Program-made: the position numbers and the translations under genes
Origin: Bacteroidales bacterium
GTDB lineage: Bacteria; Bacteroidota; Bacteroidia; Bacteroidales; VadinHA17
Direction: 5' to 3'
DNA: 32,082 bases
Assembly (NCBI GenBank): GCA_019429325.1
Contig: JAHYJA010000022.1
Span: forward strand, 1-32,082
The notes under the pieces: model-generated
Told to the model about the DNA's origin: nothing
What the model saw: the letters and a program-made list of their open reading frames with translations, nothing else
Database searches by the model: none
Shown here: positions 529 through 30,615 of the stretch, in pieces
Position numbering within the stretch: position 1 is the first letter of the stretch
Layout of the letters: every line of letters starts with the position of its first letter

Positions 529-1683
529 TCAGAAACTGTATTTGATTCTCATGAACCCCAGGTTCATCTTCCTCCGCTCAACTCCGAAACGGGCGTTGAA
601 GTACTGCCAGATAAATGAAAAATCGATATTTTCAGCGAGTGAAAAATCAGCTGAAGGTCCGGTAAAAAATCCTTTCAGGTCAGGGAACCACATACCTGAA
701 ATCGTGATGTTAATCAGCGGAGCGGCAGCCCAGGTGAACTGTCCGAAAGCGGAGAATTCAGAAAATGCAAGATCTTTTGCAGACAGGGTGCCGGTATAGA
801 GGCCTGTGAAATTATTCAGATCCAACGGATTATTGCAGTACATCAACTGCATCTGCAGCATTGAGTTATCTTTAAGGACCCTGTCAATCCCTGCGGTCAC
901 CAGCATTGTTCCTTTCATCCCTGGTTCATTGCCGGCAGGTATGAACCATGAGCCCTCGCCCCTGAAAGACGACGAGCCGATTACTCCCGACCAGCCAAGA
1001 CCGGTCACGAAATCGTCACTATCAACATATCCGGCAAGTAACTGAAGGTCGTAACCCCATCTGTTGAAGCGGAACAGTCCGGCAGCGGTTATTTTGTCGT
1101 ATGAATCGGTCTTGACAGCCAGTTCCACCGCTGAAGAGAAGGTGGGGAAAAACTGGATTCTGACCGCATCGCTTCCGGGACGCTCAATATAATCAAAGTC
1201 GAAGAATGAATATGCGTTAAAAATATCATTTGGGTTCCATACGAAAGTCTGCCCCCAGTTGATCCTCTGGCGGCCGATGGTTACCTGGAACTTATCAAGG
1301 CTGTAATCGAGCCAGAGCCTGTCGATCTTCGAATTTACAATCACTGACGGCTTGCTCAATATGTTCCACGACAAGTCGATCCACCCGGGATCGGTGCCGA
1401 TAAAATCTAAATAAAACGGACCTGTTCTGACCATATCGCCTGTGAAAACACGGTTCCTGAGTTCTGCAGCAAATGTTAAGCCTGGTGTAATGAATCCTTT
1501 AAAATTGAGCCTGTTATGAATAAGATTATCGTTGATAAAATCATCCGAAAGGGTTTCAAATATTACACTCTGCATGCTTGTCAGATACCCGTTGAAAGCA
1601 ATCTTTTTTTCAGGGTCCTGTGCGGCAGCCTTAAACAGCTGTAAAGCAACAAGCAACAATATCAGGGTTTTTCCTTTCATCAT
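529..1683 (-). CDS. Outer-membrane beta-barrel protein (porin/DUF1302-like)
   Basis: This 384-residue protein starts with a clear signal peptide (hydrophobic LILLLVALQLF, cleavage after KAAAQ). It continues as alternating beta-strand sequence rich in aromatic residues and ends in ...RIKYSF, the terminal Phe expected of a BAM-inserted barrel. The stretch GRQRINWGQTFVWNPNDIFN resembles a motif I associate with DUF1302/alginate-export-like barrels, which often accompany LolA-like proteins and exporters. The likely role is the outer-membrane partner of the upstream ABC/LolA-like genes, either as exit channel or as final acceptor; this is inference from context. Two adjacent ATGs (1683 and 1680) could serve as start. 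It lies 17 bp after the remnant of the ATPase gene and appears intact. Confidence 0.72.
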   Translation of the reverse strand: MMKGKTLILLLVALQLFKAAAQDPEKKIAFNGYLTSMQSVIFETLSDDFINDNLIHNRLNFKGFITPGLTFAAELRNRVFTGDMVRTGPFYLDFIGTDPGWIDLSWNILSKPSVIVNSKIDRLWLDYSLDKFQVTIGRQRINWGQTFVWNPNDIFNAYSFFDFDYIERPGSDAVRIQFFPTFSSAVELAVKTDSYDKITAAGLFRFNRWGYDLQLLAGYVDSDDFVTGLGWSGVIGSSSFRGEGSWFIPAGNEPGMKGTMLVTAGIDRVLKDNSMLQMQLMYCNNPLDLNNFTGLYTGTLSAKDLAFSEFSAFGQFTWAAAPLINITISGMWFPDLKGFFTGPSADFSLAENIDFSFIWQYFNARFGVERRKMNLGFMRIKYSF

Positions 1684-1700: not shown

Positions 1701-2050
1701 TTATTCCCTGACTTCATCAGCAAGGACAAATTTGGGTCGTGAGGCCAGGGCTCGTGCAACGGCAACCCTCTGTTGCTGACCTCCCGACATTTTTGAAGGG
1801 CGGCTGTTAACCCTGTCGCTCAGACCTACGGCCTGGAGAGGTTCGTGCCGTCGATGGTGATCTCTCCCGAGGTGGGCATGTCCAGCCCGCCGATGAGGTT
1901 CAGAAGGGTTGTCTTGCCTGAGCCGGAGGGTCCGACAATAGCAGCAAATTCAGCCTCATCGAAATCAAGGGTTACACCGTTCACGGCATGCACCTTTACC
2001 TCGCTCGAGTTGTATATCTTATGCACATCTTTTAATTCAAGTACTTTCAT
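1701..2050 (-). pseudogene. LolD/MacB-type ABC transporter ATPase, disrupted by two deletions
   Basis: The first 72 or so codons form a normal ATPase N-terminus with Walker A GPSGSGKT at residues 40-47, but the frame ends at a TAG (1828-1826). In the next frame the sequence continues as [14 protein letters not shown], the signature MSGGQQQR (1790-1767) and Walker B KFVLADE (1733-1713), then stops within three codons at TAA (1703-1701). About 45-55 residues containing the Q-loop are therefore missing, with a frame change. After Walker B the D-loop, H-loop and C-terminus are also missing. LolD-type ATPases are normally about 220-230 residues. The gene sits between its permease and the barrel gene. 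As written it cannot make a working ATPase; an assembly error is the main alternative. Confidence 0.85.
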
Positions 2051-2072: not shown

Positions 2073-3377
2073 TTATTCTGTTCTCAAAGCTTCAACCGGG
2101 TTCAGCTTAAGCGCTTTTCTCGCCGGCCAGAGTGATGATACAATGGCAGTAAACACCACCATGAGTGTGGTGAAAATAAAGAAGTCAGGAGTCACCACAG
2201 GATATACCCTTGCGGCGAATCCCATAGCCTCGAATCCTTCTCCCCAGCCCGAGAAATGTATGCCGGTCTTTCCCAGCACCTTTACGATTGCCCAGCCCGC
2301 TATCATACCTGTGACAGCTCCGGTCAGGGTCAGGAAGATTGTCTCCAGCATTATGATCCCAATAAAAATAAAATAATACATTATCATATAATCATTCATC
2401 ATTGCTGCGTCAGGAGCCAGTTCCTTCCAGGTCCTGACGCTGTCCCCGGATGAAATTCCTTCAAGCTTCTCTTTAACCTTCCCAGCTTCCTTTACATCAT
2501 TCAGAAGGATTGCTATTTCGTGCGTCATTATCTCATCCTTTCCCATGAGTTGTGCCAGCTCCCGGGCATTAACGAAGAGTGCGGCCTGGTCGAACCCGGT
2601 GTTGGTGGTTTTATAGATGCCGCATACTCTGAAAGCACCCTGGACGGGTGTTCCCGTATCATCTGACAGAGTTATCAGAATCCTGTTCCTGATCCTGTAA
2701 TCGAGCGCCTTACCGGTAATCAGATTACCGTAACCGTCGAGCTCCCTTTTAGTGAAAACCAATTTCAGTGCCTCACTGAAATCCTTTGGTGATCTGAACC
2801 TTGTCTCCTTCAGGTCCGTGAGCCTCAGAAGAATGTTTTCAGGAACCTTTTCCCCTCTGAGCTGATCAATTACCTCTTCCGTTATTATATAATGCTTTAG
2901 CTTAAGGATCTCCGCGCACTTGTCGCTGATAAGGATTTCACCCTGCCGGTTAATATCCGGATACTCACCTGCCCCCGGCACTATTTTTTTCCATATTTCC
3001 GTAACACCTTTCTCCCTCTCCGGGTCAATCCCGTAAACAATTACCCCGGTGGTTGCCCAGGGAGTATTGGCCATCGCCACAACCTTGCTCCTTTTTACCC
3101 ATCCCGAAACTTCCGGCAAAGCCTCTATTGCTTTTTCAGTTTCCGGCAGGCCGGTTAATGTAAGATCGATCTCCTCATTATTGATGAATTCACTATTGTG
3201 TATCTGCAGATGTGATACCTCATTGCTGATGACATCGCGGAGGCGTTGTTCAACCCATCCCTTCATTATTCCGACAAGAAGCACGCCCGAGATTATTCCG
3301 AGTGTTACGGCGGTAATGACCACCAGGCTCCGGTTCCTGTTCCGCCATATATTTTTCCAGGCTATTGATTTAATCAT
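2073..3377 (-). CDS. FtsX/MacB-family ABC permease 1, apparently lacking its coupling loop
   Basis: The 434-residue protein begins [20 protein letters not shown], a typical FtsX-family start, at ATG 3377; an upstream in-frame ATG at 3446 would overlap the antiporter gene and is rejected. TM1 covers about residues 16-38, followed by a large periplasmic MacB-like domain. At residues 335-350 the expected TM2 ([13 protein letters not shown]) runs straight into [11 protein letters not shown], which is normally the start of TM3. The roughly 35-40 residues that usually lie between them, the rest of TM2 and the cytoplasmic coupling helix (compare ERRREFGVLVAIGM in the sister permease at 4365-5786), are absent in frame. 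The C-terminus ([18 protein letters not shown]) is normal. It starts 2 bp after the antiporter stop. It is probably non-functional if the deletion is real. Confidence 0.8.
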
Positions 3378-3379
3378 GA

Positions 3380-4351
3380 TTATCTGCTTATTATCAGAAA
3401 GCCCACATAAGTAAAATAAATTACCACCATAACGATCCCCTGCCATCGTTCAATTACATGCTTTTTGCTGACATACATTGATACGAACAATAGCAGGCTG
3501 GCAAAAATCGTCATCAGAATGTCGATGTTTGAGGCAGGATTGAGTGGCAGCGGACGAATAAGGGCATTAAAACCAAGTATCCACAGGATATTCAGGACAT
3601 TTGATCCCACGATGTTTCCGATCGCTATGTCGGTCTGTTTTTTGAACGCGGCCACTGCCGATGTGGCAAGTTCTGGCAGTGAAGTTCCTACAGCGATTAC
3701 AGTGAGCCCGATCAGCGACTGGCTGACATTAAACAGTTCAGCTATCCCTACAGCTCCGTCGACGATCCATTTGCCTCCCAGCACCAGGCAAATAAGGCCG
3801 ATAAGAATAAAGGTCGCTGATTTCAAATATCCATAACTTTTTACCTCATTTGAATCCTCGCCATTCTCTTTTAGTTTGCTTATTGTAAAAGTATAAGTGA
3901 TAAAGATCACGAGGAACAGCAGAAAAACCAATCCGTCAATTCTTGTGATGACAGATGTAGCCTCCCTGTCAAAAAGAATATCATTTGCTGTTATCCCAAG
4001 AAGCAGGACGGCGAGAAGGCTGAAGGGGATCTCTTTTAACACTGTATTCCTCTGTACGGCTATCGGGAAGATGATTGCTGAAATTCCCAGTACCAGCAGG
4101 ATGTTGGCAATGTTGCTTCCCAGAATATTACCGATTGCGAGGTCTGTATTCCCTTTCAGTGTCGCAAAGAAACTGACGATAAACTCCGGGGCCGATGTGC
4201 CGAAGGCGACCACGGTCAGGCCAATGGCTATATTTGAAATACTTAATTTCCTGGCTATAGATGCCGAACCATCAATAAGCATGTTGGCTCCCGTTATCAA
4301 AACAACGAATCCCAGTATGAAGATGAGGTAAGTGAATATATGATGTTCCAT
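3380..4351 (-). CDS. CaCA-family calcium/sodium (cation) antiporter, YrbG-like
   Basis: This 323-residue integral membrane protein has the two inverted alpha-repeats of the Ca2+/cation antiporter superfamily. Repeat 1 spans about residues 44-88 (VVAFGTSAPE then AIGNILGSN); repeat 2 spans about 215-259 (VIAVGTSLPE then AIGNIVGSN). The acidic residues E56 and E227 are the expected ion ligands. A short charged cytoplasmic loop near residues 158-172 separates the halves. Length and motif spacing match bacterial YrbG-type exchangers, which use the Na+ (or H+) gradient to expel Ca2+. It is embedded between two FtsX permease genes, 13 bp after one and 2 bp before the other, so translation is probably coupled. 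Together with the EF-hand in the operon's TetR regulator this points to calcium. The ion is inferred, not proven. Confidence 0.88.
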   Translation of the reverse strand: MEHHIFTYLIFILGFVVLITGANMLIDGSASIARKLSISNIAIGLTVVAFGTSAPEFIVSFFATLKGNTDLAIGNILGSNIANILLVLGISAIIFPIAVQRNTVLKEIPFSLLAVLLLGITANDILFDREATSVITRIDGLVFLLFLVIFITYTFTISKLKENGEDSNEVKSYGYLKSATFILIGLICLVLGGKWIVDGAVGIAELFNVSQSLIGLTVIAVGTSLPELATSAVAAFKKQTDIAIGNIVGSNVLNILWILGFNALIRPLPLNPASNIDILMTIFASLLLFVSMYVSKKHVIERWQGIVMVVIYFTYVGFLIISR

Positions 4352-4364
4352 TACGGCTTAATGT

Positions 4365-5786
4365 TTAACTTCTCAGTGCTTCGATCTCCTTAAGTCTGCC
4401 AATTTTCCTCAGGGGATAAATTGTGGCGATAATAACCATGATTGCCACGACTGCCGCCTGTATGTAAAAATAGGGACCGACGGGTGCAGTTGGCATTACT
4501 GCATCCCATCCGTAATCCTCCATCATCTTTGCCAGGCCTCCTCTGAGCACAATCGGGTTGTGATTAAAAAAAAGGATCAGCGGCATGCTTGCCATCAGGC
4601 CTGCCGCAAGTCCTAAAATGCCGAGAAAGAGCATTTCCATTGAAAGGATCCTTTTAAGCCTGCCCTTTTGCATTCCTATGGCAACCAGCACCCCGAATTC
4701 TCTTCTTCTCTCTGCTATCATCATCAGCACGGTTCCGAAAATGCCGAAGAATACGATGAAGTAAAGAAGTCCGAGCATTGCTGCTCCGCTCTGGCTGTCG
4801 CCCTGTATCTGCTGATAGAGAACCGGGTTCAGTTCATACCAAGTCTTAGCCACCGTGCTTTCGCCGGAAAGGAGAGAGTTGATCTCTTCCTGTGCCGACC
4901 TCATTGTACGGTTCGACCGGCCGGTCAGATTAACAGCGAGCGAGGTAATCATCCCTTCACAGCCAAAGAACTCTTGGGCTGTTGGTATAGTCATAATAAT
5001 CAGCCTGTTGTCAATATCAGGGGAAGGCATTTTAATTATTCCGCGCACCGCGAAGATACCTGCAGCCGAAACGCCCTGGTATCCCTGACCCATAAGGATA
5101 ACAGTATCGCCTGGTGAGACTTTGAGAAAGCCTGCCAGCCTGTCGGAGACAAGCACTCCGTTATCCTGATCCTCAAGATAAGCGTTATTTACCTGTATGT
5201 TGTTCAGTATCGGAGGAATATAGAGTTGAATGTCGGAGGCCGGGAGACCAAGTTCAAGTTCAAGTCTTGCCCTCGAGGAGTAAGCCCTCCCGGAGTTCTT
5301 TTCAAGCTCACTGATAACGTGCGATGGCAGCAGATTTTCGTTCTTCATCTGTACGATCGATTCGGGGGTGATCCTGTACCTTACAAGATTGTTCTCAGGA
5401 TTCGAGAAATCTCTTTCCATGAGTGGATCAATTGCTATCACCGCCACCCCTTTCGACTGCGGGCCGTTTGAAACCAGGGCAAATGACTCGAGGTGCGGGA
5501 CCACCGAGGTAACACTTTCAATCCCTGATATTGCTTCCGCAAGGTCGTCGCTGTATTCAAAAGAATAATCTATCAGCGGATTATCCTGATATTTTTCATG
5601 CTGGATCTTAATATGCCCGGAAAACGATTCGATAAAGTTGTTTATCACCATATCGTAGGTCCCAAGCTGATAGGATCTCATAATGACCGCAAAAAAGACT
5701 GCGAAGAAGACTGAGGCAGCCGTAATGACGGTCCGTCTTTTGTTCCTCCACAGGTTTCTCCAGGCTATTTTAATTTCGTCCTTCAT
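4365..5786 (-). CDS. FtsX/MacB-family ABC permease 2 (intact)
   Basis: The protein has 473 residues and begins MKDEIKIAWRNLWRNKRRTV. TM1 lies at about residues 18-40 and a large periplasmic domain at about 41-335. TM2 (LLYFIVFFGIFGTVLMMI) is followed by the coupling segment ERRREFGVLVAIGM, then TM3, and a TM4 near residues 445-463 before the terminal RKIGRLKEIEALRS. This is the full architecture of LolC/LolE/MacB-type permeases, which use cytosolic ATP hydrolysis to move periplasmic or membrane-anchored substrates rather than pump across the membrane. It should pair with permease 1 and the ATPase, both damaged here. It follows the LolA-like gene by 55 bp. Substrate is unknown; lipoproteins or lipids are the natural guess given the LolA-like neighbour. 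Confidence 0.88.
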   Translation of the reverse strand: MKDEIKIAWRNLWRNKRRTVITAASVFFAVFFAVIMRSYQLGTYDMVINNFIESFSGHIKIQHEKYQDNPLIDYSFEYSDDLAEAISGIESVTSVVPHLESFALVSNGPQSKGVAVIAIDPLMERDFSNPENNLVRYRITPESIVQMKNENLLPSHVISELEKNSGRAYSSRARLELELGLPASDIQLYIPPILNNIQVNNAYLEDQDNGVLVSDRLAGFLKVSPGDTVILMGQGYQGVSAAGIFAVRGIIKMPSPDIDNRLIIMTIPTAQEFFGCEGMITSLAVNLTGRSNRTMRSAQEEINSLLSGESTVAKTWYELNPVLYQQIQGDSQSGAAMLGLLYFIVFFGIFGTVLMMIAERRREFGVLVAIGMQKGRLKRILSMEMLFLGILGLAAGLMASMPLILFFNHNPIVLRGGLAKMMEDYGWDAVMPTAPVGPYFYIQAAVVAIMVIIATIYPLRKIGRLKEIEALRS

Positions 5787-5841: not shown

Positions 5842-6606
5842 TCAGCGGACCCTTCTCATGTTCTGCTGTGAAAAGAAGCTTTCCTCAACAGGTATGTTGA
5901 ACTGTATTTCCCGTATCTCAATAACTGTTCTGTTATCGGGTTCTTCTGCAGGGACCAGATCAATCCTGGTGGGTATGTTCCTGTTATCCATATTTTTTAT
6001 CTCTGAGCCTGTCTCGGTCCTTACGAGGGAGCCGTCCTCGTCGTAAAGTTCTGCTTTCAGGACAAGGAAATCGTTCTTGTCAACCCACCTGATCTGATGC
6101 CCCCAGACAATTGCCGCCTCTTCCTTTGCCGTCATCATGATCTTATAACAGAGTCGTCCTCCGACCATCTCCTCACCTGCTATCTCATGAACATAATCGG
6201 TCACAACAGATGATTCCCTCAGGATATCGTCGTTTGTATAATCCGATCCCATCCATCCCTGCGACATCATCGATGGCGGAAGTTTTATCAGCCTGTTGAT
6301 GGCAGGGTTCCATGTCCACATTTCGTTTCCCCTTTTGAGGAAAGTCTGTCCTGCCTCTTTTGCCGGTGCGGTGATAAGGGTAAGGGCATAATCTCTTCCC
6401 ATGGTCCAGTTCCTGAACTCGACGGTTCTTTTCCATGCCGGCCTGACAATGGTCATTGACATTACTGAATAACCCGATTTCTCGCCGTTGAACTTTTCAT
6501 CTGCCTGCCTGATTATTTCTGTGGCAGTAATTCCCTGTCCGTATGCTGTATAGGTTAATCCGAAAAGAACTGAAAACTGAAATGCTGTTTTAAGTAAACG
6601 TTCCAT
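5842..6606 (-). CDS. LolA-like outer-membrane lipoprotein-sorting protein
   Basis: The 254-residue protein has an N-terminal signal peptide (FQFSVLFGLTYTAYG, probable cleavage near residue 23) and then a sequence typical of the LolA-like group usually annotated as outer membrane lipoprotein-sorting protein. Family-like features are the ADEKFNGEKSGYSVMSMTIV start, the FLKRGNEMWTWNP turn, KLPPSMMSQGWMGSDYTNDD and a late RWVDKNDFLVLKAELYDEDG strand pair. Such proteins fold as an open beta half-barrel that carries a hydrophobic ligand across the periplasm. Members of this group often sit beside FtsX/ABC or RND exporters and DUF1302-like barrels, as here. It starts 6 bp after the TetR gene's stop, so they are co-transcribed. 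The cargo is unknown. Confidence 0.8.
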   Translation of the reverse strand: MERLLKTAFQFSVLFGLTYTAYGQGITATEIIRQADEKFNGEKSGYSVMSMTIVRPAWKRTVEFRNWTMGRDYALTLITAPAKEAGQTFLKRGNEMWTWNPAINRLIKLPPSMMSQGWMGSDYTNDDILRESSVVTDYVHEIAGEEMVGGRLCYKIMMTAKEEAAIVWGHQIRWVDKNDFLVLKAELYDEDGSLVRTETGSEIKNMDNRNIPTRIDLVPAEEPDNRTVIEIREIQFNIPVEESFFSQQNMRRVR

Positions 6607-6612
6607 GGAGCT

Positions 6613-7242
6613 CTATTTAAATAATTCAATTATCCGGTTTATGGTTTTTTCATCATCCTCGTCATCATCGATATAGATGCGGGTTATGGCATAACCCTTC
6701 AGGGTGATCAGGAACATGTTCATATCGAGGATCGGATCATAATCAGGGCCCCTGCTCTCTTTTTTCCGCATGAAGTAATCGGTTATCACTCCTGAAATAT
6801 CCAGCAGGAATTTTTCCTCGCCGGTAAAGAATTCCATCTTTATCAGGGGATCCGAAGATAAAACCGAAAATTTCTCCCTCACTTCATTCTGCAGTACCAG
6901 CTGAAAGAAAAGGCGCCAGAATGATCTTTTATCGCGGAGTACAGCGGAGATCTTTCTGATAAAAAAATCAAATTCATCCTCACTGAGGTATCCGTCCTTA
7001 TTCAGGTCGAAGTATTCATAAACCTCCATTACCGACCTTTTCAGGATTGCCTCCAGCAGAGCCTCTTTGCTGTCAAAGTAGTTGTACATCAACCCTTTCG
7101 AAATGCCGGCATGTTTAGCAATATGGTTTATCGTGGCAGCATGATACCCCTCGTTGGCAAAATGGTCAAGAGCAACATCCATTATGAGTGCCCGTTTTTC
7201 CTCCCTGATCTCCTCAAACTGTTTTTGTGTTCTGGGTGACAT
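6613..7242 (-). CDS. TetR-family regulator with an embedded EF-hand calcium loop
   Basis: The 209-residue protein has a standard TetR DNA-binding domain at about residues 15-60 (FANEGYHAATINHIAKHAG, then ISKGLMYNYFDSKEALLEAI). Immediately after, residues 79-90 read DLNKDGYLSEDE, a textbook 12-residue EF-hand loop: D79, N81, D83, G84, L86 and E90 fill the canonical positions, flanked by helices at about 61-78 and 91-102. This places a potential Ca2+ site on the helix linking the DNA-binding and ligand domains. The ATG at 7242 is chosen because an upstream in-frame TTG (7281) lies above the likely transcription start. It leads the operon encoding a CaCA exchanger. Family call is secure; Ca2+ sensing is inferred. 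Confidence 0.9.
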   Translation of the reverse strand: MSPRTQKQFEEIREEKRALIMDVALDHFANEGYHAATINHIAKHAGISKGLMYNYFDSKEALLEAILKRSVMEVYEYFDLNKDGYLSEDEFDFFIRKISAVLRDKRSFWRLFFQLVLQNEVREKFSVLSSDPLIKMEFFTGEEKFLLDISGVITDYFMRKKESRGPDYDPILDMNMFLITLKGYAITRIYIDDDEDDEKTINRIIELFK

Positions 7243-7250
7243 ATTCTTTA

Positions 7251-7268
7251 TGATTGAACGGTTAGTCA
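7251..7268. promoter_or_regulatory. Candidate TetR operator palindrome
   Basis: TGATTGAACGGTTAGTCA is an imperfect 18-bp palindrome; 6 of 9 half-site positions pair. It resembles the TGAC...GTCA operators of many TetR repressors. It overlaps the end of the minus-strand promoter and the expected transcription start of the TetR operon, the usual place for autorepression. Binding by the neighbouring regulator is inferred. Confidence 0.5.
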
Positions 7269-7298
7269 AAGATATTGTCAATATTTAAAACAAGCAAA
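7267..7298 (-). promoter_or_regulatory. Bacteroidota-type promoter of the TetR operon
   Basis: Read on the minus strand, TTTG (7298-7295), a 20-bp spacer and TATCTTTG (7274-7267) exactly match the primary-sigma consensus TTTG-N19/20-TAnnTTTG of Bacteroidota. Transcription would begin near 7262, leaving a leader of about 20 nt before the ATG at 7242. Confidence 0.7.
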
Positions 7299-27919: not shown

Positions 27920-29848
27920 TTACCGGATACTGAATTCCTTCTCCTTCAGAATACCGCCACGAGTCGACAAAACCCTGGCCTTTCCTCTCAATACTGCTCC
28001 CTTGTAAGTTCTGATAACGTAGCTGGCAGTTGTAACTGAGCCTCCCTGCGTGGCAGGAACGAACTTTATGGCCGGTCTGCCATAGGCCGGGTTTTCAAGA
28101 TAAAGTCCTTCCGCAGCCAGTTGCTGATCCCTTCGCCGGCGGTTATCTTCGGTATTGATTATTTTATATGCGGGTTTCTCATCAACAAGGGCAACCGAAT
28201 CAATTTCGATTATCACCCTGTCGTCCCTTACAATCTTAACCAGCTGTGCCTGTTTCAGCGCTGTGGGCAGCATTCCGGTATTCCTGAACCTGACGTTTAC
28301 CTGATAATCGGCAGAGTCGGTTCTGTAGGATCTGATCCTCTTCACCTCGATATTTTCCCATTCCAGACCCGGAAGAGCCTTTGCCATTTCGAGGTTGAAG
28401 AAGGCCTGGTTGGCAACCCACTGTTCCATATGTTTCGCCGGGGGGTTCTGTGAAAAGAACTTCGGATCAAAACCTCCGATCTCAATATCACCATGCTGAG
28501 GGTGTCTGAAGGGTTTCCACTCAAAGAATCCGTTGCCGTCGTTCTCTTCATCATCCCATATCAGCATATCGAGCTGGTCCTTCACCCCATCGTTGTTATA
28601 ATCTTTATGCCTGCCCCCGTTCCATATCTCGTCGCCATACCAGATAGCCCCATAGTACCAGTACCCGAAATCGGGGCCATGCCCGAAAAGCGGATTACCT
28701 CTTCCGTAATCGTCGAAGACGTCTCCGGCCCTTTCGTAACCTGTTATGCTTTTCCCGACCTCATCAAAATGCCTGTACCATTTCAGGTCCTCGGGATACA
28801 TTCTCTCTTCGGAAGGAGAAGTTGAAGGAGCTCTGAGATGCATCGGAACGCTGGTGTCCATGGAATTAACTACCGATATGTTGGGATGCGTAAGAAGGAA
28901 TGACACAACCGATCGTGTTTCTGTTTCACTCAGCGGATACTCTCCTGCTCCGCCCTGTGTGTAACCGCGGCCTGTCTCCTCAGATAAGGGTCTCCAGTTC
29001 TCGGGGTAATTGCGATGAAGATCCAGACCTCCTATCCCGTCTTCATTGATACGCCCGTCACCATCGTTGTCGATGCCTTCAGAACCCGAGAGGTAAATTC
29101 CCTCACCGGCAGGGACCCTCTGCATGATCCTTCCGGTTGAATCCAGGGGATGAGGAATAAGGTTCCCCCTCTTCTCATCCTTCCACCTCATCGTTAAAAT
29201 GATCCCGTCACCGTCAATATCGTCGGGAGCATCCTCATCCAGCAGACCGTCGCCGTCGTTGTCGAAGGGTCTCACCGTGCTCCGGTTGCTCTGGGCTGTA
29301 TTCATGTAAAGTTCATGTCCGTCGGGATTATTTACCGGTCTGAGATAAATGGTCCTGGTATCGATTAGGCGGGTCACCTCAGGATCTTTACCGTAATTCG
29401 TGATAAGGTAGTTGGCAAGCCATAACACTGATTCACAGCCTGATACCTCGCCACTATGTCTCCCTCCCTCAAAGAAGGCTGCCGGTTTATCTGTATCTTT
29501 GCCGCTCTCCTTTTTGGTGACAGTGATCTGCATTACAGGCCTGCCTTCATAGCTCCGGCCAACCTCGTACAGATCGACGATTGAGGGATATTTCTCCGCC
29601 CATCTGCTCAGCCATGTGTAAATTACGTCAGCCGAATGATATTGTGTGAAATCGAGGGAATCTCCGGCTTCATACTGAACGTGGGAGAGTTTCACCCGGG
29701 GGAAAAAATTAACACCATGCCTGAATCCCGACAGGGTATAGACCTCCCTGTCCCTCCGCTCTTCTGCTTCAGGGCGCATTCCGGGCTGACCTGTCAGTAT
29801 GGTGAAGCCAGGAAGAAGCAGCAACAAAAACGTTATCGCTTTATTCAT
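27920..29848 (-). CDS. Secreted M14 zinc carboxypeptidase with calcium-loop inserts
   Basis: About 642 residues from ATG 29848 (MNKAITFLLLLLPGFTILTG, a signal peptide); an upstream start would overlap the Crp gene. Zinc ligands are H131 and E134 in GGRHSGE and a later His in MDTSVPMH. NPDGHE and DLHRNYP supply substrate-binding residues, and E in GDIEIGGF is the likely catalytic glutamate. Inserted between these motifs are acidic loops, NDGDGLLDEDAPDDIDGDG (about 198-215), NDGDGRINEDG and NNDGVKDQLD, resembling thrombospondin type 3/dockerin Ca2+ loops. The enzyme should trim C-terminal residues from peptides outside the cytoplasm. The C-terminal 130 residues look like a beta domain. It lies 71 bp after the Crp/Fnr gene. 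Confidence 0.87.
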   Translation of the reverse strand: MNKAITFLLLLLPGFTILTGQPGMRPEAEERRDREVYTLSGFRHGVNFFPRVKLSHVQYEAGDSLDFTQYHSADVIYTWLSRWAEKYPSIVDLYEVGRSYEGRPVMQITVTKKESGKDTDKPAAFFEGGRHSGEVSGCESVLWLANYLITNYGKDPEVTRLIDTRTIYLRPVNNPDGHELYMNTAQSNRSTVRPFDNDGDGLLDEDAPDDIDGDGIILTMRWKDEKRGNLIPHPLDSTGRIMQRVPAGEGIYLSGSEGIDNDGDGRINEDGIGGLDLHRNYPENWRPLSEETGRGYTQGGAGEYPLSETETRSVVSFLLTHPNISVVNSMDTSVPMHLRAPSTSPSEERMYPEDLKWYRHFDEVGKSITGYERAGDVFDDYGRGNPLFGHGPDFGYWYYGAIWYGDEIWNGGRHKDYNNDGVKDQLDMLIWDDEENDGNGFFEWKPFRHPQHGDIEIGGFDPKFFSQNPPAKHMEQWVANQAFFNLEMAKALPGLEWENIEVKRIRSYRTDSADYQVNVRFRNTGMLPTALKQAQLVKIVRDDRVIIEIDSVALVDEKPAYKIINTEDNRRRRDQQLAAEGLYLENPAYGRPAIKFVPATQGGSVTTASYVIRTYKGAVLRGKARVLSTRGGILKEKEFSIR

Positions 29849-29919
29849 AATTGTCAGTCTTGTTAAATTCCGGATGCTCTCATGCTGTACAAAGGCCTGG
29901 TAACCTGAACAGAACAGGC

Positions 29920-30615
29920 TCATCCCTTTAATGAGATTATCTCAAGTTTGTTATAATCGGCTATTTCTATGGTTTTCCCAAAAACCTTTATTATCCCGTC
30001 GCGTTTAAAATCCGACAGGGTCCTGATAACGTTTGCCATGCTCATTCCGATAAAATCTGCAATTTCCTGACGTGAAACGGGAAGCTCAAATACCCTGGAG
30101 CTATAGATCTCCTCAGAAAAGTACAATAACACGTAGGCAACCCTTCCCGCCAGGTTTTTCTGCCGGAGATCAAGAGTCTGGGAAATGATTTTCTCGTTTA
30201 TGATCGAAATTTTTGTCAGAAGGCCAAGCGCAAATCCTCCATGTTTGACTGCAAGCTCCTTAATAAATTTAAGGTCCACTGAACAGACAACGGAGTCTTC
30301 GAGGGCAGAGACCGAGTAATGGTAGGTCTCATCTGAAAAAATGCTCATGTTACTGACAAATTCAAAAGGTTTTGTTATGGTAATGATCTGCTCCTCGCCC
30401 TTTCCGGAGCTTCTGTATACCTTCACAAGACCCTTTTTAAGGTATCTGAAGCTGGAGATCTTTCCGCCTTCCCTGTTTATGACCTCACCCTTCCGGTAGG
30501 TGTCCTCATGTTTATGCCGGCACAATTCGTGTATTGTCGGTTCATCAAGGTGAGAAAAGGCTATCTCCCTGAACTCGCAGTTAACACAGATACAATTCGG
30601 GTCAAAATTATCCAC
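29920..30615 (-). CDS. Crp/Fnr-family regulator with an N-terminal cysteine cluster
   Basis: The 231-residue protein starts at GTG. The cyclic-nucleotide-binding fold covers about 25-140 (YRKGEVINREGGKISSFRYL, KPFEFVSNMSIFSD) and the winged helix-turn-helix about 165-225 (VSRQEIADFIGMSMANVIRT). Cysteines C8, C10, C13 and C32 cluster at the N-terminus and C111 sits in the sensor domain, a pattern reminiscent of FNR, where N-terminal and one internal cysteine bind an oxygen-sensitive Fe-S cluster. The spacing is different, so this is suggestive only. A likely target is the downstream M14 gene or a distant regulon. TAAATTTG (30639-30632) is a candidate promoter element. Confidence 0.9.
   Translation of the reverse strand: MDNFDPNCICVNCEFREIAFSHLDEPTIHELCRHKHEDTYRKGEVINREGGKISSFRYLKKGLVKVYRSSGKGEEQIITITKPFEFVSNMSIFSDETYHYSVSALEDSVVCSVDLKFIKELAVKHGGFALGLLTKISIINEKIISQTLDLRQKNLAGRVAYVLLYFSEEIYSSRVFELPVSRQEIADFIGMSMANVIRTLSDFKRDGIIKVFGKTIEIADYNKLEIISLKG

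Follow-up and report, generated by a model that had tools for sequence, protein, structure and literature searches.

The DNA analysed here (the window) is a stretch of 32,082 nucleotides from a Bacteroidales bacterium. At positions 6613..7242 of its minus strand we identified a gene for a TetR-family regulator of 209 amino acids. The helix-turn-helix DNA-binding domain (TetR_N, PF00440, E 5e-17) covers residues 20-66 (7045..7185, minus strand) and scored 61.9 bits against a curated Pfam cut-off of 24. The start was placed at the Met codon at 7240-7242; an alternative in-frame TTG is present at 7281. The AlphaFold2 model, built with 66 sequences, had a mean pLDDT of 88 (82 for residues 71-80, 90 for residues 81-90), and the whole model matched TetR structures (FadR, RutR, TM1030). 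The protein is a member of the TetR family, both by the TetR_N score and by its all-helical TetR fold.

Residues 79-90 of this protein (6973..7008, minus strand) read DLNKDGYLSEDE. They fit the EF-hand consensus as a 12-residue loop in which every position is filled (D1, N3, D5, G6, L8, E12), as a first-pass annotation of the window had stated. Its claim that the loop lies between two helices was also correct: helices are predicted at residues 59-75 and 88-104, directly after the DNA-binding domain. With the second of them, the exiting helix begins at residue 10 of the loop, which is also where it begins in EF-hands. The loop and its helix context were thus confirmed. The Pfam model EF-hand_1 matched residues 72-97 (E 1.3e-4, 21.7 bits) and did not reach its cut-off of 25.4, which was exceeded by a single protein (L075, 29.2 bits) among the 10 relatives scanned. 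Among 66 aligned members TetR_N matched all 66 at E <= 0.01, and EF-hand_1 matched 32. EF-hands are expected in pairs, and one stretch was matched in the window protein. Single EF-hands are known in other proteins, and Ca2+ binding by unpaired hands is often weak. We would therefore count the stretch as an EF-hand by its ligand pattern and its helix-loop-helix arrangement, with helices that are predicted, and not by the Pfam cut-off or by pairing. In the genome of the window, which is rated 97% complete, EF-hand_1 had no match at E <= 0.01 other than the TetR loop. A large secreted-looking protein encoded elsewhere in the window (27920-29923, minus strand) carries several acidic loops of the DxDxDG type (DNDGDGLLDEDAPDDIDGDG, DNDGDGRINEDG), and these were absent from the EF-hand_1 matches at that threshold.

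Further, we compared the stretch with known structures. When the fragment 57-106 was modelled alone, Foldseek returned 17 matches at E <= 10, every one an EF-hand or dockerin entry; their E values were weak (1.5 to 8.5), and the sequence itself enters into them because Foldseek also scores the residue letters. A loop profile built from 39 fragments (the window and 38 other full-loop relatives) matched 465 distinct PDB sequences at E <= 0.01. Nearly all of the 60 matches listed were named calcium-binding EF-hand proteins of the calmodulin type, and the best of those listed was secretagogin (E 6e-17, a sum over the several hands of that protein). When the corresponding stretch of 26 loop-less relatives was searched, two PDB sequences matched: the HALC3_919 chain and one described as a possible transcriptional regulator. 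The name of neither points to an EF-hand protein. This control took 26 of 28 fragments, as the near-duplicates L104 and L108 were dropped; L110, L124, L130 and the partial loops had been excluded earlier. The contrast is somewhat flattering to the loop, because the profile was loop-bearing only and the control alignment was more diverse. On sequence grounds the case for a metal site in the loop is strong.

The regulator gene is the first of a set of genes on the minus strand. It is followed by the genes for a LolA-like periplasmic carrier (5842..6606; PF17131, E 4e-53), a LolC/E-like FtsX-type ABC permease (4365..5786; PF02687 and PF12704; lolCE E 4.9e-24, below its cut-off), a CaCA Na+/Ca2+ antiporter (3380..4351; PF01699 E 4.7e-64, TIGR00367 above cut-off) and a second LolC/E-like FtsX-type permease (2073..3392; PF12704 and PF02687). 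The remains of an ABC ATPase (1713..2050) and a barrel-like protein with weak similarity to DUF1302 (529..1683; PF06980 E 0.058, below cut-off) complete the operon. The CaCA gene begins 13 bp after the gene upstream and overlaps the next one, so that its place in the operon, asserted by the first-pass annotation, holds. The ATPase remains were located by tblastn with the ATPase of a relative (L032), in which an intact gene of 228 amino acids stands at the equivalent place. In the window two pieces matched in different frames, with residues 73-122 and 170-228 of that protein unmatched; either the gene is broken or the assembly is at fault here. A PADLOC search gave no match.

Around the orthologues we observed the order TetR, LolA-like protein, two FtsX/LolCE-like permeases, ABC ATPase and barrel-like protein. 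The LolA-like protein, the two permeases, the ATPase and the barrel-like protein are the constant partners of the regulator, the last recognised by its conservation in these operons. The function is read from family names: it is probably export, and our guess is that lipids or lipoproteins are carried to the outer membrane. Some loci departed from the common arrangement. Two entries from the same isolate (L052 and L053) show that one genome holds two TetR-LolA-permease operons with the loop. In L068 (7001-7576) the stretch examined around a loop-bearing TetR contained neither a LolA nor an ABC gene, and in L200 a loop-bearing TetR heads another gene set, barrel-permease-ATPase.

Upstream of the regulator gene, at 7251..7270 of the minus strand, lies a predicted operator, TTTGACTAACCGTTCAATCA, which in relatives takes the form of a perfect palindrome, TGACTGAACGTTCAGTCA. 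It overlaps the sequence TATCTTTG (7267..7274, minus strand) of the form TAnnTTTG, which we take to be a Bacteroidota -7 box. A TTTG at 7295..7298, on the same strand and 20 bp before this box, is a possible -33 element by its consensus. The operator-like palindrome over a promoter that had been annotated earlier is real in this sense, but a scan for sigma-70-type promoters in the upstream region of the TetR gene found none. In the genome of the window this operator was the sole site without mismatches. The pattern TTTGACYRAMCGTTCARTCA, with at most 3 mismatches, was present within 200 bp upstream of 99 of the 106 order-wide members counted (L188 and L222 were dropped for short upstream DNA), and the TAnnTTTG box overlapped it in 91 of these 99. 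After the letters of each upstream region had been shuffled once, the count was 0/106. The palindrome is thus likely, judging from its position and conservation, to be the TetR's own operator. A wider regulon was considered and rejected: the second genomic match has 3 mismatches, and hits of this quality were also obtained, three times, with the pattern reversed as a control. Only self-control is therefore claimed. In L003, L005, L008, L016 and L057 we noticed by eye two operator-like palindromes approximately 45-60 bp apart, some with ACGGTTTTT between them.

We surveyed the loop in the genus, in the order and beyond. Sixty relatives were searched, 36 of which share the genus of the window (its own genome counted). 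A full-length orthologue was found in 13 same-genus genomes, and that of G002 was cut by a contig end. The full loop was present in 12 of the 13, with two loop-bearing copies in G012; in G014 (L013) it has been lost and replaced by a longer, broken loop. In the alignment of 14 loop-bearing sequences, with the window included and L013 omitted, D79, D83, G84, L86 and E90 were invariant and position 81 was Asn or Asp. The profile of these 14 sequences was compared at E <= 1e-15 with 393 genomes of the order, which we take to be Bacteroidales in the wide sense, a sample unselected for the loop apart from the loop-bearing query. A family match was obtained in 113 genomes and counted as one locus per genome (second matches in six genomes were not fetched). 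The full loop was present in 65/113, from 35 families and 43 genera, and was counted absent in 40/113, from 30 families and 31 genera. The remaining 8 were near-complete: 5 had all four side-chain ligands without the glycine and 3 had Asn at position 1 together with the other ligands. Loop-bearing members of the family occur in the strains Labilibacter marinus Y11 (L100) and Thermophagus xiamenensis DSM 19012 (L122). All 65 full loops have Glu at position 12, as would be expected of an EF-hand that takes Ca2+ and not Mg2+.

The loop is nearly all-or-none in this family. After five distant sequences (L233-L237) had been removed, all six loop positions were matched in 65 of 108 rows and two or fewer in 29. 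When the columns were shuffled, six positions were matched in 18.6 rows on average (maximum 29) and two or fewer in 3.7 (maximum 9); shared ancestry inflates the excess of joint matches over these shuffles. A metal site would be expected to keep or lose its scattered ligand positions together. A chance motif is ruled out by this pattern together with the 65/113 full loops. The aligned stretch was exactly 12 residues long in 101 of the 108 members, with or without the motif, which rules out an inserted EF-hand domain; since the loop adds no length, the EF-hand was apparently formed in place. A quick tree of 114 rows, made with the loop columns removed, gave at least 17 changes of loop state, with loop-bearing rows in both halves (44/111 inner branches open; L039, L110 and identical rows omitted). 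We read the loop as an ancient trait with many losses, on a tree that cannot distinguish gain from loss.

A further scan took the best 80 loci of 498 relatives. The full loop was present in 40/80: in 22/35 labelled Bacteroidales, 8/8 Marinilabiliales and 10/19 Bacteroidota without class. It was found in 0/16 loci of other classes or phyla and 0/2 Bacteroidia without order. Because the query was loop-bearing and the loci were ranked by their similarity to loop-bearing sequences, the set is biased towards the loop. A loop profile of 50 residues, applied to a sample of 296 genomes of the phylum at the strict cut of E <= 1e-8, returned only the genome of the window. Within the best 80 of 498, six loci from two separate clades of the tree (L056, L057, L058, L082, L093 and L096) have Asn instead of Asp at position 1; their metal sites may be weakened, and they offer natural variants of some use.

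The first-pass annotation had taken the antiporter in the operon as a reason to expect Ca2+ sensing. In its version, the regulator exists to sense Ca2+ on behalf of this antiporter. The tight packing of the CaCA gene in the window speaks for such a relation, as does G021, the nearest relative, where the antiporter likewise follows the first permease gene. But among the window and 20 further loci, some of which end early, only these two have the antiporter inside the operon, and downstream of the TetR gene it was found in 0/80 loci (best 80 of 498; the DNA available on that side ranged from 69 bp to 7 kb, so that some offered little). The argument from the operon fails; the loop itself extends far beyond this one gene. 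At E <= 1e-40 an antiporter homologue was detected in 3/25 same-genus genomes and was missing from 22/25, many of them incomplete; a full-loop TetR was present in 10 of the 25, and just 2 of those 10 had the close antiporter homologue. The loop is far wider spread than the antiporter insertion, which contradicts this version as a general rule, and the rarity of the antiporter in the operon rules it out as the reason for the loop. Of the explanations weighed here we consider this one the least probable. We take the antiporter to be a recent addition to the operon in one small clade. Its joining would fit a Ca2+ signal, and two genomes are thin evidence for that.

The same annotation had named loop-less homologues with the same operon as the observation that would count against a calcium sensor, and such homologues exist. 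Within the fetched stretch (up to ~6.6 kb, some contigs ending early) the LolA-like gene accompanies 35/40 loop-less TetRs, the other five being the distant L233-L237, and 61/65 full-loop TetRs. The operator is kept in 31/34 loop-less members, against 60/64 with the full loop and 8/8 with a partial one. Therefore the DNA target has likely stayed constant while the sensor loop came and went, and a Ca2+ input is not needed by the operon everywhere and would be dispensable in some lineages. For proteins with an intact loop, metal binding is not called into question by this. The earlier interpretation as a whole is partly supported.

The main rival to gating by Ca2+ is a permanently occupied structural site. 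The loop would hold Ca2+ (or Mg2+) at all times and stiffen the turn between helices 4 and 5, and another ligand would signal through the C-terminal pocket. This agrees with the unchanged operator and operon of loop-less members and with the best solved profile matches, 1vi0 (an unnamed regulator) and 3whb (a regulator of fatty acid metabolism). As the nearest solved relatives include FadR, the pocket ligand would perhaps be a lipid or acyl-CoA. The repeated loss of the loop fits a dispensable input better than an indispensable scaffold, and we regard the structural site as rather unlikely but serious. A metal-free mimic, in which an acidic, glycine-containing turn is retained for helix capping or an electrostatic contact, seems very unlikely to us. 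Asp, Ser/Thr and Glu are common capping residues at helix starts, and in the full set (114 rows, 209 columns) loop position 9, a Ser/Thr, is well conserved (rank 58) and position 8 moderately so (rank 93). But the ligand positions 1, 3, 5, 6 and 12 (ranks 49-74) outrank positions 2, 4, 7, 10 and 11 (ranks 95-167), they are lost jointly, and the PDB matches listed for the loop profile are nearly all named EF-hand proteins.

We lean slightly towards a one-component TetR repressor that is gated by Ca2+ through its single EF-hand and controls an envelope export operon, which the antiporter joined later in one small clade. The loop with its position and its all-or-none conservation, the operator and the operon are features of the DNA itself; from them we infer the binding of Ca2+, the binding of the operator, the direction of the response and its trigger. 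The turn that joins helix 4, which serves as hinge to the DNA-binding domain, to helix 5 would itself form the EF-hand. The TetR would occupy the palindrome over its own promoter and so repress the LolA-like/LolCE-like ABC/barrel export operon. A rise in cytosolic Ca2+, such as damage to the envelope might cause, would fill the loop with the ion. The filled loop would fix the angle between helices 4 and 5, DNA would be released, and the envelope operon would be expressed. In the clade of the window the added Na+/Ca2+ antiporter would close a Ca2+ feedback loop. According to earlier work, helix 4 of TetR proteins swings like a pendulum and so hands movement of the sensor domain on to the domains that bind DNA (PMC8326586), and rigidification has been proposed as the driver of DNA release (PMC6018408). 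An EF-hand with helix 4 as its entering helix is in a good position to do the same in response to Ca2+. The case for this putative gating of transcription by Ca2+ in the loop-bearing TetRs is a good one.

The EF-hand TetR family is real, widespread and, as far as we searched, unreported. No TetR carrying an EF-hand was found in the literature by titles and the starts of abstracts, in a search with subscription papers mostly outside its coverage, and the papers mentioning both 'EF-hand' and 'TetR family' did not, by title, concern one. In their accessible parts, a review of bacterial Ca2+ proteins (PMC10574481) contained no TetR with an EF-hand, a paper on Bacteroidota LolA (PMC11885536) had no bearing on the LolA-like/TetR operon, and a paper on Dx[DN]xDG loops (PMC3123361) named no DNA-binding regulator, the words 'transcription' and 'DNA-binding' each occurring 0 times. 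The last describes, in that part, calcium loops of many folds, and the TetR loop resembles them as the same linear motif in an unrelated fold (PMC3123361). Like canonical EF-hands (PF00036; calmodulin, secretagogin), it has the loop residues, the helix-loop-helix and an exiting helix at position 10; unlike them, it is a single hand in a protein predicted to bind DNA, where it lies inside a TetR fold and apparently arose in place with no gain in length. Like other TetR/AcrR regulators (PF00440; by fold FadR, RutR and TM1030), the protein has a helix-turn-helix, an all-helical sensor domain and a palindrome over its own promoter. It differs from them in that the turn between helices 4 and 5 is an EF-hand; no such loop was seen in the 8 alignments with solved TetR chains that were viewed, the others being compared by name alone. 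SczA and ComR are TetR regulators that answer to a metal, zinc and copper respectively, and not to Ca2+, and we know of no EF-hand in either.

Ca2+ as an internal signal of bacteria has long been disputed, mostly since direct Ca2+-to-gene receptors are few. The EF-hand TetR family offers a small candidate receptor of this kind, with a conserved operator and natural loop-less controls. Its textbook loop, at the hinge between the part that grips DNA and the sensor part, suggests repressors that are switched directly by calcium. The closest known parallel in outline, DREAM/KChIP3, differs in being a eukaryotic member of the neuronal calcium sensor family, with several EF-hands and no TetR fold. 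As described in PMC6104694, this EF-hand protein sits on DNA as a repressor and comes off when Ca2+ rises, and its targets include the Na+/Ca2+ exchanger NCX3. A similar release by Ca2+ is what we propose for the TetR family. In summary, we suggest, tentatively and with a little less than even confidence, that in much of the order an EF-hand evolved in the hinge of a TetR and that Ca2+ directly sets the transcription of an envelope export operon. Such a regulator would be a prokaryotic counterpart of DREAM, in which one protein leads from ion to gene.
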